Shown here in pieces: positions 42,649-48,258 of a stretch of DNA of 56,675 bases. Source of the stretch: Tabrizicola caldifontis (GTDB lineage: Bacteria; Pseudomonadota; Alphaproteobacteria; Rhodobacterales; Rhodobacteraceae). The stretch lies in NCBI RefSeq assembly GCF_004762095.1, contig NZ_SIJH01000018.1, positions 1-56,675 of the forward strand, written 5' to 3'. Each line of letters starts with the position of its first letter. Position 1 is the first letter of the stretch. The notes under the pieces are model-generated. The model saw only the letters and a list, made by a program, of their open reading frames with translations, was not told the origin of the DNA and did not search any database. Both the position numbers and the translations under genes were made by a program.

Positions 42649-43380
42649 ATGTCCGATACCAGTTCCGGCATCCGCCTTGCGGCCGCCAGCGTCAGCCTTG
42701 GCGGGCGCAAGGTGCTTGATGACCTTACTCTCGACATCACCGAAAGGCGCGTCGGCATCCTGGGCCGCAACGGATCGGGCAAGACCACGCTTCTGCGGCT
42801 GATCGCGGGTCTGATCGCGCCGGCCCGGGGCAGCGTGCGTGTCGAAGGCGCAGATCCCTTCAGCGACCGCAAGGCGGCCCTGTCGGCCATCGGCATCCTG
42901 TTCCAGAACCCGGATCACCAGATCCTTTTCCCCACGGTCGAGGAGGAACTGGCCTTCGGTCTTGCCCAGCAAGGCCAGCCGCAGGCCGAGGCAATGCGCA
43001 AGGCACATGCCCTGCTGGCGGCCGAAGGTCGCGCACATTGGGCCAAGGCGCCGGTATCGACGCTGAGCCAGGGGCAGCGGCATTATCTCTGCCTTCTGTC
43101 GGTTCTTCTGATGCAGCCCCGCACGATCCTGCTGGACGAGCCCCTTGCGGGCCTGGACCTGCCGACCCAGGCGCGCCTTGCCCGCCGCTTTGCCACCCTT
43201 CCACAGCGGCTGATCACGATCACGCACGATCCGGCAACGCTGCACGCGGCCGACCGGGTAATCTGGCTGGAAGCCGGTCGGATTGTCGCCGATGGGCAGC
43301 CGGACAAGGTCATTCCGGCCTTCACCGCCGAAATGGAACGGATCGGAGAGCACGATGCTGACGCTCACCTCGCCGGTTGA
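42649..43380 (+). CDS. bioM: Biotin ECF transporter ATPase BioM
   Basis: A 243-residue ATPase of the CbiO/EcfA type. The Walker A is GRNGSGKT (39-46), the Q-loop LFQNPDHQILFPTVEEELAFGL is the usual ECF pattern, and the signature is LSQGQR instead of LSGGQ. The Walker B is ILLDEPLAGLD. In bioMNY it powers biotin import with BioN and BioY. It overlaps bioN by 26 bases, so translation is coupled. The first bases of the operon contain no BioR-type palindrome visible to me. Confidence 0.88.
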   Translation: MSDTSSGIRLAAASVSLGGRKVLDDLTLDITERRVGILGRNGSGKTTLLRLIAGLIAPARGSVRVEGADPFSDRKAALSAIGILFQNPDHQILFPTVEEELAFGLAQQGQPQAEAMRKAHALLAAEGRAHWAKAPVSTLSQGQRHYLCLLSVLLMQPRTILLDEPLAGLDLPTQARLARRFATLPQRLITITHDPATLHAADRVIWLEAGRIVADGQPDKVIPAFTAEMERIGEHDADAHLAG

Positions 43381-43954
43381 AATCTGGGCGCACCGCCTGC
43401 CCGCCGGGGTAAAGCTTGCTGCGATGGCGCTGGCGACGACCGGGCTGTTTCTCATGGGATCGCCCCTTGGCCTTGGCCTGTCTGCACTGGCAACGGCCAC
43501 GCTATACCTTGCCGGGGGCGGCGGCTTCGCCATGACCGGACTGCGCCTCTTGCGCCCTCTCTGGCCCTTCGTGCTGGTCGTGGCTGCGTGGCATCTATGG
43601 ACAGGGGACTTCGCAGGTGGGGCGGCGGTCACTCTGCGCATGTTGACCGCAGTAGCCTTGGCGAACTTTGTCACCATGACCACGCGCCTGTCCGACATGA
43701 TTGCCATATTCCAGGGACTTGCCCGCCCTCTGGCACCTTTCGGTCTGGCGCCTCGTCGCCTGGCGCTGGCGATGGCACTGGTGATCCGGTTCATCCCCGT
43801 GATGCTTGATCGTCTGGCCCAGATCACCGACGCATGGTCTGCCCGCTCTGCCCGCCGCCCGCGCTGGCGGGTGCTGGTGCCCGCCACGCTTGCCGCCCTT
43901 GACGACGCCGACCGGGCGGCCGAGGCCTTGCGAGCCCGAGGCGGCACCGGATAG
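43355..43954 (+). CDS. bioN: Biotin ECF transporter transmembrane protein BioN
   Basis: A 199-residue membrane protein, the EcfT subunit which joins BioM to BioY. It has four to five hydrophobic segments and the two short signature motifs of EcfT proteins, seen as AWSARSARRP and EALRARGGTG in the C-terminal third; these bind the ATPase. It starts inside bioM (ATG at 43355) and ends 24 bases before bioY. BioN is shorter than the general EcfT (about 250), as usual for the BioMNY type. Confidence 0.88.
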   Translation: MLTLTSPVEIWAHRLPAGVKLAAMALATTGLFLMGSPLGLGLSALATATLYLAGGGGFAMTGLRLLRPLWPFVLVVAAWHLWTGDFAGGAAVTLRMLTAVALANFVTMTTRLSDMIAIFQGLARPLAPFGLAPRRLALAMALVIRFIPVMLDRLAQITDAWSARSARRPRWRVLVPATLAALDDADRAAEALRARGGTG

Positions 43955-43978
43955 AAGCGCGACAAAACGGAGGAATAC

Positions 43979-44521
43979 ATGGAACGAAGCCTGACCCATA
44001 TCGCCCTGTTTGCCGCCCTGATCGCGGTGCTTGGCCTGATTCCGAAGATCGATCTCGCTGCCGGCGTTCCGATCACGGCGCAATCGCTGGGGATCATGCT
44101 GTGCGGCACGGTGCTTGGGGCGCGGCGGGGCGCGCTGGCCGTTCTGCTGTTCCTTGCCCTGGTTGCCGCAGGCTTGCCGCTGCTCTCTGGTGGGCGCGGG
44201 GGGCTGGGCGTGTTTGCCGGGCCGTCTGTCGGGTACCTGATCGGCTTTCCGGTCGCTGCATTTGTGACCGGCTGGCTGATGGAACGCACCACCCTGCCGA
44301 CTGGCCTTGCTGCAGGCGCTGCTTCGGTCATCGGCGGGATCGGCGTGCTTTATGTCTTCGGCATCAGCGGCATGGCGATCATGCTGGACAAGAGCCTGAC
44401 CGAGGCCGCCTTCCTGGGCATGGCCTTCCTGCCGGGCGACATCCTGAAGGCGGTCATTGCCGGGCTTGTGACGCAAAGCCTTGCACGGATGCGCCCCGCC
44501 TCGCTGTTGTCACGCGCCTGA
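43979..44521 (+). CDS. bioY: Biotin transporter substrate-binding subunit BioY
   Basis: A 180-residue S-component with six hydrophobic segments, which binds biotin in the membrane. Conserved blocks include VPITAQSLGIMLCGTVLGARRG, LPLLSGGRGGLGVFAGPSVGYLIGFPVAAF and LAFLPGDILKA-like sequence near the end. It follows bioM and bioN. A ribosome-binding GGAGG lies nine bases before the ATG. Its stop codon is inside the 3' end of the convergent thiolase gene (12-base overlap), so antisense transcription across both ends is possible. Confidence 0.93.
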   Translation: MERSLTHIALFAALIAVLGLIPKIDLAAGVPITAQSLGIMLCGTVLGARRGALAVLLFLALVAAGLPLLSGGRGGLGVFAGPSVGYLIGFPVAAFVTGWLMERTTLPTGLAAGAASVIGGIGVLYVFGISGMAIMLDKSLTEAAFLGMAFLPGDILKAVIAGLVTQSLARMRPASLLSRA

Positions 44522-45580
44522 GGCTTCGACCAGAAGGGCCGAGCCGATTCCACCCGCAGCGGCGATGGCGGCAAGCCCCCTGCCCCGCCGCAAGTCGTGG
44601 AACAGCCGCACCGCCAGAATCGCGCCCGAGGCACCTACGGGGTGGCCTCGGGCAAGCCCGCCGCCGCCCGGATTGACGATGGCCGGGTCCAGCCCCGCCC
44701 CGTCAACCACCGCAAGCGCCTGCACCGCGTAGGCCTCCATCACCTCGGCCATCGCAAGCGGCTCGTCCGCCCAGACAGCCCGGATCGCCGCAAGCGGGGC
44801 CAGGCCGGGCTCCATAGGGTCAGCCCCGACCGTGGCGCCGGCCAGAATCGCCAGCCCGCGCCCCTCGGCTATCCCTTCGCTGACCACCAGACAAACCGCC
44901 GCAGCATCCGCCGCCACTGCCGCCGTGGCCGCCGTGATGCTGCCGCGAACCACCGGTGCCCGAGCCAGCAGCCGAGGCGTAAGCGCACGCGGAAACGCGT
45001 CGCGGGCCACACCGCCGACAGGCACGATCTCGGCAGACCGGTCGGATCCAAGCGCCTTGGCGTGGCTGTCTGCGGCCCAGGCCTCTTGCCTTGCACGATT
45101 GATCCCCAGCCGCAGCGCCAGCGCCTCTGCCGCCTCGGCCATTCCGGGGTTTCGGTCCGGCCAGGGGGTGAAGGGGGCCTCGTCATAGGGAAGCGGCGGT
45201 CCTCCATCAGGATCGGTGGCAAACCGAAGCGGCCGGCGGGAATAGCTTTCGACCCCTCCAGCCAGAACCACCTGCGCGGCGCCACTGTCCACCAGCGCAC
45301 GCGCCAGCAGGATCGCATCCAGCCCGCCCGCACATTGACGGTCGATGCTGAGACCCGCCACTTGATCCAGCCCCGAAGCCAGTGCCACCCGCCGCGCGGG
45401 ATTGCCGCCCGCACCCAGGGCGTTGGACAGGACAAGCTCATCCACCTGCGCTGCGGCGATGCCGGCATCGGCCAGAACCGCCTGCACCACGGGGGTTGCC
45501 AGGGCCTCGATCCCGAGGCGGGCGAAGGCTCCGCCCCGGGGAACCACCGCCGTCCGCCGTGCGGCGATCAGGCGGGCCAA
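44510..45580 (-). CDS. Thiolase-family protein, YhfS-like, altered active site
   Basis: A 356-residue thiolase-fold protein. The nucleophilic cysteine is kept as Cys83 in RQCAGGLDAI and the histidine as His313 in GHPVGASGA. The second catalytic cysteine, normally in a C-x-G-G-G loop near the C-terminus, is replaced: the loop reads GLAAIAAAGGIGSALL, with Ala340 at that place. The protein may be a synthase or binding protein rather than a regular acetyl-CoA acetyltransferase. The start chosen is a TTG at 45580, overlapping the ligase stop by 13 bases; a later GTG is possible. The pair with the ligase beside bioY recalls YhfS/YhfT of the Bacillus biotin regulon. Confidence 0.78.
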   Translation of the reverse strand: MARLIAARRTAVVPRGGAFARLGIEALATPVVQAVLADAGIAAAQVDELVLSNALGAGGNPARRVALASGLDQVAGLSIDRQCAGGLDAILLARALVDSGAAQVVLAGGVESYSRRPLRFATDPDGGPPLPYDEAPFTPWPDRNPGMAEAAEALALRLGINRARQEAWAADSHAKALGSDRSAEIVPVGGVARDAFPRALTPRLLARAPVVRGSITAATAAVAADAAAVCLVVSEGIAEGRGLAILAGATVGADPMEPGLAPLAAIRAVWADEPLAMAEVMEAYAVQALAVVDGAGLDPAIVNPGGGGLARGHPVGASGAILAVRLFHDLRRGRGLAAIAAAGGIGSALLVEASGA

Positions 45581-46722
45581 GGCAAAAGCGCCTCCAGCGC
45601 GCGAAGATCCGTCTTGCCGGAAGGCAAGGCGGGCCAATCCTGGATCCAGACCAGCTTTTTGGGCGCCCTTGTTGCCCCAAGCTGCCCGCGCAGACTGGCC
45701 AGGACCGCTGGCTCGGTCGATGAGTCGCCCTGCACGAAGGCGACAAGCGAATGCCCGCGCCGGGTGTCGGCCATCGGCAGCACGGCAGCACGGCGGATGC
45801 CTGGCATGGCTTCGATCAGTGCCTCGATCTCTTCGGGAAAGACATTCTGATCGGCCACGGTAACCATCCGCCCGGCCCGGCCATGCAGATAGAGGAAGCC
45901 GTCTTCCATCCGCGCGATCTCGCCCACCGACAGCCAACCGTCACGCCAGCGCGCACCGCCGGGGCTGCCAGCGTAATCCATGAACAGGTAGGGGCTTTTC
46001 ACCCATAGCTCACCCGCCGCATCCAAGGTCAGCGCCACGCCCGGATAGGGTCGGCCGACCGAACCCGCTGGCGTCGCCGAATCGGACAAGGTGATGAAGC
46101 TGGTTTCCGCCGCGCCATAGAATTCGCAGATCGCTGCTGCCGGCGCCAAGGCCTGAAACCGCCCGCGCAAGGCCGGGTCAAGCTTCGATCCCCCGACAAG
46201 AACCCGTTGCAGATCAGGCAATGTTTCCTGCCCCTCGGACAACATGCGCAGTTGCGCCGGCGTGGCGTAAAGATGAGAAATCCTTTGCTGTTTCAAATAC
46301 CTGCCTTGCCGATCCGGGCGCAGCGTGTCCAGCAGGTGAACTGCAGCTCCCAGGTGCAGCCCTTCGATCGCGCCATAAAGCGACAGCGAATGCACCAGGC
46401 GGCCCAAGACCGCCACCCGCGCGCCCGGGCCGATGCCCAAGCCCGCGTTGACCTTGAAACTTGCGATCCACGATCCTTGCGTCCGCCGGATGCGCCGGGG
46501 CGTCCCGGTCGAACCCGAGGTGAGCGTCTCGAAGGTGGGAACCCGGCCCTCCTCTGGCGGCGGCTGATCCGGTGCTCCGACCCGGAAGGCTGGCAATCCG
46601 ATGACTTGCGCCAGGCCCTCTGCAGTGGCATCAGCTACCGGACCCTGCGGTACTGCCCGGCCGACCTCTTGCCCGGCAGCAGACAGCCGCGCCTTCGGAT
46701 GCCATTGGAACCGGTCAGTCAT
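45568..46722 (-). CDS. AMP-forming acyl-CoA ligase, short YhfT-like
   Basis: A 384-residue adenylate-forming enzyme. The ATP-binding A3 loop is TSGSTGTP (68-75), A5 is FYGAAETSF, the later hinge is [27 protein letters not shown], and the catalytic lysine Lys370 is in [10 protein letters not shown]. Only about 65 residues precede A3, compared with about 150 in full ligases, so most of the N-terminal subdomain is missing. The acyl substrate is unknown. Its ATG overlaps the aroQ stop (ATGA), and its end overlaps the thiolase start, so the order aroQ-ligase-thiolase forms one operon, convergent with bioMNY. Confidence 0.8.
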
Positions 46723-47159
46723 CCGGCCAGAAGCGACGCCATCCGGCGGACAGCCAACAGGTAGCCCTCTGTGCCGAAGCCTGCGATCACCCCGTCGGCG
46801 CGCAGACTGACATAGGAATGGTGTCGGAATGGCTCGCGCTTGTGAATGTTCGAAATGTGCACTTCCAGCACCGGCCCCTCGAAGGCGTTCAGCGCGTCCA
46901 GAATGGCAATCGACGTATGCGAATAAGCCCCTGGATTCAGAATGATGCCCGCCGATGTGCCGCGGCATCCCTGGATCCAGTCAACCAGCTGCCCCTCGTG
47001 GTTCGATTGCAGGGCACGCAGGGAAAGTCCAAGTTCCTCGGCCAGATCGGCTGCCTTGGAGGCGACATCATCCAGTGTCTCGCGCCCGTATATCTCGGGC
47101 TGGCGCAGGCCCAGAAGATTCAGGTTCGGGCCGTTCAGAAGGGTCACAAGCTTGGGCAT
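46719..47159 (-). CDS. aroQ: 3-Dehydroquinate dehydratase, type II
   Basis: A 146-residue type II dehydroquinase, which dehydrates 3-dehydroquinate to 3-dehydroshikimate in the shikimate pathway. It starts [17 protein letters not shown], has the catalytic tyrosine in [11 protein letters not shown] and the base histidine in [33 protein letters not shown] is the other signature. A second possible ATG (at 47168) gives three more residues. It is the first gene of a three-gene minus-strand operon with the ligase and the thiolase. Confidence 0.93.
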
Positions 47160-47220
47160 GGGGCGCATCCACGACAGGGTTGGGCGACATTAGCCGATCG
47201 GGACCAAGGGGCAAGCCGGG

Positions 47221-47306: not shown

Positions 47307-48173
47307 TCAGGCCACCTTCTCCAGCACCACCTCGGGCTTGATGCCCAGGGCGTGGACGACCTCGCGGGTCAGGTGCGGGCGGTTCAGCGTGTAGAAATGC
47401 AGATCCTCCACCCCGCCCTCGATCAGCTTGTCGCAAAGCTGCGTGCACTGGGTCAGCGCCAGCAGCTCCTCGCGCCCGTCGCGGGCGGCGGTGGCAAAGG
47501 CCTCGTCCAGCCTGTGCGGGATCGAGGTGCCGCAGCGCCGGGCAAATTTCTTCGCACCCTCCCACGAGGTGATCGGCAGGATGCCGGGGATGATCGGGGC
47601 CTCGATCCCCGCCTTCACGCATTGATCGCGGAAGCGGAAGAAGGTGTCGGCATCGAAGAAGAACTGGGTGATGGCGCTCGATGCACCCGCGTCGATCTTG
47701 CGCTTCAGCCAGGTCACGTCCGACGTGGCATCGGCGGCATCTGGATGCGGCTCGGGGTAGGCGCCGACGCGGATCTTGAACTTGCCGGTGCGCGCCAGCT
47801 TCTCGACCAGCTCCACCGAATTGGCAAAGCCCAGGGGATGCGGCACGAAGCGCTGCGCCCCCTTCGGCGCATCACCGCGCAGCGCGACGATCTCGGTCAC
47901 GCCCGCCGCCGCATAGGCCTCGGCGATGGCCAGCGTCTCGGTCCGGGTGGCATCGACGCAGGTCAGATGCGCCGCGACCGGCAGGCCATAGTTGCGATGG
48001 ATGGTCGAGACCGCCTCATGCGTCAGCGTCCGCGTCGTGCCGCCCGCGCCATATGTCACCGAGACAAACGAGGGCTGCAATGGCGCCAGCGCCTGCACCG
48101 TTTCCCACAGCCGGAAGGAAGCGTCCAGGGATTGCGGCGGGAAGAATTCGAAGCTGATACGCGGGGTGGGCAT
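47307..48173 (-). CDS. metF: Methylenetetrahydrofolate reductase
   Basis: A 288-residue TIM-barrel flavoprotein which reduces 5,10-methylene-THF to 5-methyl-THF, the methyl donor for methionine synthesis. It starts MPTPRISFEFFPPQ, and has the conserved blocks SVTYGAGG, HLTCV (about 86-90), LRGDAPKG and ITQFFFDADTF. AAGGAG lies upstream of the ATG. A strong terminator follows, so it is monocistronic. Divergent metR starts 86 bases away; a candidate MetR site lies between. Confidence 0.94.
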   Translation of the reverse strand: MPTPRISFEFFPPQSLDASFRLWETVQALAPLQPSFVSVTYGAGGTTRTLTHEAVSTIHRNYGLPVAAHLTCVDATRTETLAIAEAYAAAGVTEIVALRGDAPKGAQRFVPHPLGFANSVELVEKLARTGKFKIRVGAYPEPHPDAADATSDVTWLKRKIDAGASSAITQFFFDADTFFRFRDQCVKAGIEAPIIPGILPITSWEGAKKFARRCGTSIPHRLDEAFATAARDGREELLALTQCTQLCDKLIEGGVEDLHFYTLNRPHLTREVVHALGIKPEVVLEKVA

Positions 48174-48215
48174 GACGGTCTCCTTCGATGCCCCCTTGTC
48201 GCAGATCGACAAGCC

Positions 48216-48228
48216 TGAGACAAATTCA
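48216..48228. promoter_or_regulatory. MetR-box-like site between metF and metR
   Basis: TGAGACAAATTCA matches the MetR box TGAA-N5-TTCA with one mismatch (TGAG). It sits in the 85-base interval between metF and metR, 43 bases from the metF start and 31 from the metR start. A further partial TGAGGTTCA follows nearby. Confidence 0.45.
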
Positions 48229-48258
48229 TAGTTCTCACGATCTTCATGAGGTTCATTC

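Follow-up and report, generated by a model that had tools for sequence, protein, structure and literature searches.

What do an acyl-activating ligase and a thiolase-fold protein do beside a biotin importer? The question is raised by a contig of Tabrizicola caldifontis (Rhodobacteraceae; NZ_SIJH01000018.1, 56,675 nucleotides, here called the window), which is one entire contig of a 3.48 Mb genome that is 99.98% complete. In it, genes for an ATP-binding cassette (ABC) ATPase, a CbiQ protein and BioY stand in a row (bioM-bioN-bioY, 42649-44521, + strand) and are faced, from the opposite strand, by genes for a YhfS-type thiolase-fold protein (44510..45580) and a short AMP-forming ligase of the YhfT type (45568..46722). 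The initial annotation had described ligase and thiolase as convergent to bioMNY with aroQ in front of them, and both the coordinates and the description proved correct, all genes of note being present there as open frames with matching Pfam domains. Our survey shows that relatives of yhfT and yhfS follow one type of biotin importer, genome by genome within one family and again in several phyla. Our preferred reading, to which we give a probability of roughly 0.4, is that the pair forms an uptake-linked acyl-activation module, in which imported biotin or a side-chain variant would become a coenzyme A (CoA) thioester and be handled by acyl transfer.

The linkage is clearest in the window's own family, of which we surveyed 149 genomes, one per genus, with profile searches of the same set. 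A YhfS-type thiolase was found in 25 of them (the profile, A1, includes the window's own protein; these 25 score 368-564 bits and the next genome 317), and all 25 have BioY. In 22 of the carriers BioY lies within 6 kb of the thiolase gene, a proximity that is more than chance; in the other three (G026, G059, G125) ligase and thiolase genes stand together and BioY is on a different contig. The 22 linked loci comprise 17 convergent arrangements, as in the window, four co-directional (G126, G100, G109, G017) and one divergent (G086). BioY is over its cut-off in 127 of the 149 genomes and bioB in 20, so that predicted biotin auxotrophy looks common in the family. The presence of BioY is a weak correlate of the thiolase (25/25 carriers against 102/124 other genomes, p 0.03, relatedness not corrected).

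The type of BioY, by comparison, is a strong correlate of the pair. When 91 BioY genes at ligase loci were compared with 118 taken from stretches apart from the pair, a single FastTree branch (support 100) contained all 91 ligase-locus BioYs and 14 of the 118. The same 14 carry an Arg in the GGRGG motif, as do 89 of the 90 linked BioYs besides that of the window. Within the stretches available (about 0.9-4 kb), bioN adjoins BioY in 14/14 of these branch members and in 0/104 of the rest, which identifies the group as the energy-coupling factor (ECF) module type. In the family, 25 of the 36 genomes with an ECF-type BioY have the thiolase, against 0 of the 113 without one (Fisher p 4e-20, relatedness not corrected); the BioY gene of G109 is broken and was typed by its neighbours bioM and bioN. 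BioY residues D154 and K157, which we take to be biotin contacts, are kept in 90/90 linked BioYs. The window's bioY (43979..44521, + strand; Pfam BioY 4.4e-36) encodes a predicted biotin-binding S component placed in this group by tree and motif. Upstream are bioN (43355..43954, + strand) for the transmembrane EcfT/CbiQ subunit (Pfam CbiQ 2.8e-14) and a putative bioM (42649..43380, + strand) for the ECF biotin importer ATPase (Pfam ABC_tran; NCBIfam ECF ATPase models below cut-off), whose name follows from the CbiQ and BioY genes alongside. Other alphaproteobacterial bioMNY importers likewise consist of these three genes in this order, and the absence of a BioR site agrees with what the available part of one report states for Paracoccus denitrificans bioMNY2 (PMC4554459). 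What distinguishes the present loci from plain bioMNY is the attached ligase and thiolase genes in those 25 of 36 genomes.

Are the two proteins truly kin of YhfT and YhfS, as the initial annotation had it? That bioY occurs with yhfT-yhfS in Bacillota is already known, and the same three families meet in Bacillus subtilis yhfU-yhfT-yhfS and in Staphylococcus aureus bioY/yhfS-yhfT. The NCBIfam models NF005797 (PRK07638) and NF005212 (PRK06690) are presumably those of B. subtilis YhfT and YhfS. NF005797 is the best model for the window ligase, with 197 bits over profile positions 144-474 only (next model 116), below the equivalog cut-off of 518, which was exceeded in 0/149 family genomes and 1/14 control genomes. 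For the window thiolase the general thiolase model TIGR01930 comes first (209 bits) and NF005212 second (176 bits, cut-off 498). Full-length ligases of relatives (n=4) reach 216-331 bits, and thiolases of relatives with a full-length ligase (n=6) 338-384, the general model scoring higher in four of the six. Two of five Bacillota pairs exceed both cut-offs (L128, Metabacillus, 594 and 534 bits for ligase and thiolase; L143, Bacillus sp., 593 and 563), and L127, L131 and L139 fall below (453-466 and 401-417). A tree of 75 selected ligases, in which all 15 controls were drawn from the window's family and no row is named YhfT, separates 60 kin including the window's from those controls by a branch of support 100; within the kin, the window ligase belongs to a 25-row clade (support 99) consisting nearly entirely of short forms. 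The kinship therefore stands: the tree groups the ligase with kin, its best model is NF005797, and kin of the same clade exceed both cut-offs.

The association with BioY also recurs across phyla. In a wider scan, five long-type ligases were searched against genome contigs; among the best 80 of 373 relatives, at 79 loci, a thiolase was found at 69 and bioY in the fetched stretch at 65, counts that are not independent, since the genus of the query is favoured in the list, one contig appears as both L154 and G126, and L035 and L136 come from a single species. The loci include Actinomycetota, Cyanobacteria, Rhizobiaceae, Azospirillum and Erwinia, and those of Bacillota with bioY (L127, L128, L131, L133, L139, L140, L143) all have the order bioY-ligase-thiolase. 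Taken together, the kinship to YhfT/YhfS and the recurrent linkage to BioY across phyla make a real biotin-linked function likely.

It could instead be that an ordinary acyl-CoA ligase and thiolase came to lie near bioMNY through shared plasmid transfer, with no functional tie. Several records do place both on plasmids: Paracoccus aminovorans and Azospirillum ramasamyi have bioMNY-ligase-thiolase, Alloyangia pacifica has the convergent layout, and Sinorhizobium meliloti has bioMNY, a ligase without an annotated gene, thiolase, thioesterase and a medium-chain dehydrogenase/reductase (MDR). Moreover, broken copies exist (the ligase of L035, the thiolase of L091). However, the linkage is kept in the several orders and orientations described above and in at least four phyla, the ligase group is set apart from other ligases, and a loss in the active site of the thiolase is common to the group, all of which makes mere hitch-hiking or decay very improbable. 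Streptantibioticus has thioesterase-bioMNY-ligase-thiolase (by homology search of an unannotated record), and a plasmid of Rhizobium etli CIAT 652 has thioesterase-ligase-thiolase with no bioMNY nearby.

The initial annotation had gone on to suggest a real pathway, perhaps for salvage or for making a precursor such as a pimelate-like acyl-CoA. A real pathway agrees with the linkage, and salvage may be its role; the making of a precursor does not survive in this host. In the window genome bioB (best E 6.9e-6), bioA (309 bits, cut-off 405) and bioF (371 bits, cut-off 426) were not found over their cut-offs, and bioD was not searched for; among the family carriers 23 of 25 are without bioB, the exceptions being G086 and G130. 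Precursor synthesis in the window host was rejected on these grounds. Carriers and other genomes do not differ in this respect (bioB in 2/25 against 18/124, p 0.53, relatedness not corrected): since carriers do not lack bioB more often than the rest, the module tolerates auxotrophy and is no marker of it. A role of the pair in making pimeloyl-CoA or some other early biotin intermediate would be in keeping with the biotin linkage, with the presence of bioB in 23 of 40 named genomes that have kin (17 have none) and with Pelosinus, where the ligase gene lies behind bioB-bioW-bioF-bioD-bioA. But that operon already has bioW, so that pimelate activation is already provided there, and the position of the ligase behind a complete set points to biotin as the common factor. 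In addition, the pair is carried by R. etli CIAT 652, by its strain number identical with Rhizobium phaseoli CIAT652, which the available part of one report describes as a biotin auxotroph (PMC8914248). For the window host, de novo synthesis of a precursor is contradicted unless another route replaces bioB, and we give it almost no credence. The known BioW and BioZ routes share with the pair a biotin context and either acyl activation or a thiolase-superfamily fold, but they involve other families, and the window host is without the later bio genes over cut-off. Since the host seems unable to make biotin, the pair more likely processes imported or damaged biotin than builds a precursor. In Pelosinus fermentans (L124:4405-9137), the YhfT-type ligase gene is accompanied by genes for an alpha/beta hydrolase and a methyltransferase.

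Within the pair, the ligase looks like the core. Seven alphaproteobacterial metagenome-assembled genomes (L113, L115-L118, L120, L121) have bioMNY-ligase, and their best thiolases score 305-314 bits, as thiolases of other types do; such genomes can be incomplete, but all seven concur, and the ligase is thus retained with bioMNY where a YhfS-type thiolase is lacking. Tistrella has no such thiolase either (310 bits), its ligase lying away from bioMNY; the genome of L111 has one (479 bits), and Pelosinus gives an intermediate match (374). The window ligase (46722..45568 read on the - strand) is, to judge from its predicted structure, a short form without the N-terminal (first) subdomain: its Pfam AMP-binding match begins at profile position 151, and the model (mean 79.9, predicted template modelling score, pTM, 0.67) is of low quality over most of residues 1-58 and confident from about residue 60. 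By sequence (4.5e-23) and by fold, the nearest solved structure is the amide bond synthetase McbA (6sq8, 6h1b); from McbA and the short-chain and aryl acid AMP ligases the window protein differs in its low identity (about 23%), its missing first subdomain and its context. The source of McbA, Marinactinospora thermotolerans, itself has a bioMNY-ligase-thiolase set (L129). In L072 and L154 (G126), two YhfT-type ligase genes and a thioesterase gene lie between bioMNY and the thiolase gene. The ligase of S. meliloti Ak57 pSymB (L035:5600-7090) is unannotated and matches in two pieces, and that of strain 4H41 (L136) gives one longer match.

The thiolase-fold partner has an unusual active site. Thiolases employ Cys89 as nucleophile, Asn316 and His348 in the oxyanion hole and Cys378 as base (Zoogloea ramigera numbers, from the available part of PMC3406046). 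The window protein (44510..45580, - strand; Pfam Thiolase_N/C; TTG start at 45580 chosen by us) has a confident model (predicted local distance difference test, pLDDT, 92) that matches the Z. ramigera biosynthetic thiolase with a template modelling (TM) score of 0.92. It keeps the nucleophilic Cys83 and the GHP His313, but Ala340 replaces the CxG base Cys and Met281 the NEAF Asn, and the protein is about 34 residues shorter. We extended this comparison to 110 loci (the window, 24 from the family, 79 from the scan and six from plasmids), which yielded 100 thiolases of the YhfS family, 98 of them readable. The nucleophilic Cys is kept in 100/100 and the His in 99/100 (one gap), whereas the CxG base is absent in all 98 readable copies (G 70, A 24, P 3, S 1); in the two unreadable ones, the Cys of L091 is an out-of-frame reading and L149 is cut off. 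The NEAF position is N in 74 and M in 24; the 24 Met copies, in which the base is replaced by A (21) or P (3), come from the window's family or its plasmid kin. The five other thiolases that rank next by profile score all retain the four catalytic residues. Lack of the base speaks against ordinary thiolase chemistry; its shared loss across the family is, by our alignments, a new observation, and it predicts an unusual chemistry. It is on these missing residues that calling the partner a putative acyltransferase would depend. The base is missing in Bacillota loci too, and the window differs from the yhf sets there in its dedicated bioMN, convergent layout, short ligase, Met-for-Asn and Ala-for-base replacements and lack of a BioR-like site. 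The window clade is a derived form, marked by loss of the thiolase Asn and of the first ligase subdomain.

Other lineages add further genes to the set. Over the 110 loci we counted an MDR gene at 40, a 4HBT_2 thioesterase at 36, a nitroreductase at 10 and a short-chain dehydrogenase/reductase (SDR) at 8; with so few SDR matches, mostly of 76-87 bits, a ketoreductase was rejected as a part of the module. Nitroreductase-family genes (L032:8230-8910 and nine further loci) often lie directly behind bioY in family bioMNY operons, and in L230 such a gene adjoins bioY and the ligase pair is on another contig. The MDR and thioesterase genes raise a bolder possibility than acyl transfer, namely the rebuilding of the side chain of shortened biotin. 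Bisnorbiotin, which arises from biotin by beta-oxidation, would be imported, activated by the ligase, extended by two carbons by the thiolase-fold enzyme and reduced with the aid of the MDR protein, whereupon the thioesterase would set biotin free. A two-carbon elongation indeed needs a ligase, a condensing-type enzyme, an enoyl reductase and a thioesterase, mitochondrial 2-enoyl thioester reductases are matched by the MDR protein of L136 (about 1e-25), and the 74 thiolases that keep Asn retain the trio of Cys, Asn and His used by decarboxylating condensing enzymes. Yet the best match of that MDR protein is a putative quinone reductase (2.5e-35), the base needed for thiolase Claisen chemistry is absent throughout and the window type lacks the Asn as well. 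Furthermore, neither MDR nor thioesterase was found at the locus in the window or in 24 of the 25 family carriers (G126 alone has them), the loci yielded neither a dedicated dehydratase nor a regularly present ketoreductase, and the seven genomes with ligase and bioMNY do without the YhfS-type thiolase. A vitamin-repair pathway spread over several phyla, with a thiolase-fold enzyme lacking the classical base and MDR and thioesterase joining in some lineages, thus appears unlikely, and bisnorbiotin repair as the role of the pair is similarly doubtful. Our searches of the literature on bisnorbiotin, biotinyl-CoA, biotin catabolism and biotin vitamers returned nothing on yhfS/yhfT-type genes, and a full-text search returned nothing joining bioY, thiolase, acyl-CoA synthetase and biotin, although earlier regulon surveys may lie outside its scope.

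Might the link to bioY reflect a shared demand rather than a shared substrate? At low biotin, acetyl-CoA carboxylase would fail, and the pair could channel fatty or other acyl groups from outside into lipids, sparing biotin. The two families are annotated as fatty acyl-CoA ligase and as thiolase, respectively, and S. aureus BirA represses bioY and yhfS-yhfT according to the available parts of two reports (PMC6391492, PMC7235819). The BirA box pattern with a 15-base gap gave 0 matches in eight Bacillota loci; after this negative it was widened (gaps 13-17, up to 4 mismatches), and BirA-box-like palindromes with a 13-base gap and 3-4 mismatches then appeared in 4/7 Bacillota loci (L128, L131, L133, L143), 86-104 bases before the bioY match, against 0.8-2.35 matches per locus in shuffled controls. 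In the window, BioR-like sites with up to 2 mismatches numbered 4 against 5.6 expected, with none at the locus, so BioR control of the locus was rejected; elsewhere just four one-mismatch sites lie upstream of bioM, bioY or ligase, three of them in Bacillota. With bioMNY and the pair on opposite strands and no BioR-like site, co-regulation fails to explain the linkage in the window. Nor would a general low-biotin response predict that the pair tracks one BioY group and never the other in 149 genomes. We therefore hold a biotin-sparing lipid response to be improbable as well.

The reading that we prefer builds on what was observed, namely the gene families and their linkage, the group of the importer, the missing bioB and the lost residues. 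The facts fit a pair that assists ECF-type biotin uptake, does not depend on de novo synthesis and has the ligase as its core. Whatever BioY brings into the cell is the simplest candidate for the substrate. BioMNY would import biotin or a close analogue, whose carboxylate the YhfT-type ligase would adenylate and turn into the CoA thioester, and the YhfS-type partner, acting as no ordinary Claisen thiolase, would take the acyl group on Cys83 and hand it to another nucleophile; elsewhere the set also includes a hotdog thioesterase and an MDR protein that resembles enoyl reductases. BirA repression in S. aureus and the BirA-box-like sites of the four Bacillota loci speak for this reading as well as for the lipid response. 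Acyl transfer is the conservative version of this scheme, and that it serves salvage or retention of biotin, not synthesis, is a tentative proposal.

Several points weigh against this proposal. The importer is self-sufficient, bioMNY being enough for biotin uptake, and 11 of the 36 genomes with an ECF-type BioY have no YhfS-type thiolase. The pair also occurs with no bioY nearby, for example in Rhizobium, Erwinia and Nocardiopsis coralli. The named enzymes nearest to the ligase in sequence and fold act on other acids; the window thiolase, having also lost its Asn, may be degenerate; and a role in fatty-acid economy at low biotin would yield much of the same linkage. Finally, the substrate, CoA as acceptor, the acyl transfer and the physiological role are all things that we infer.

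The layout of the locus is compact. The bioY and thiolase genes overlap tail to tail by 12 bases, and overlaps of 13 bases (thiolase/ligase) and 4 bases (ligase/aroQ) suggest a single aroQ-ligase-thiolase transcript facing bioMNY. The aroQ gene (46719..47168, - strand; type II dehydroquinase, DHquinase_II, TIGR01088 over cut-off) is found at the locus in 6 of 25 family carriers, and its place beside the ligase is a local feature that is likely incidental. Ahead of these three genes lies metF (47307-48251).

The genes yhfT and yhfS are biotin-controlled, and where the host lacks the biotin genes the survey removes the most obvious idea about them, precursor synthesis. As many marine and symbiotic bacteria rely on scavenged biotin, any means of conserving or mending the vitamin would be ecologically important to them.

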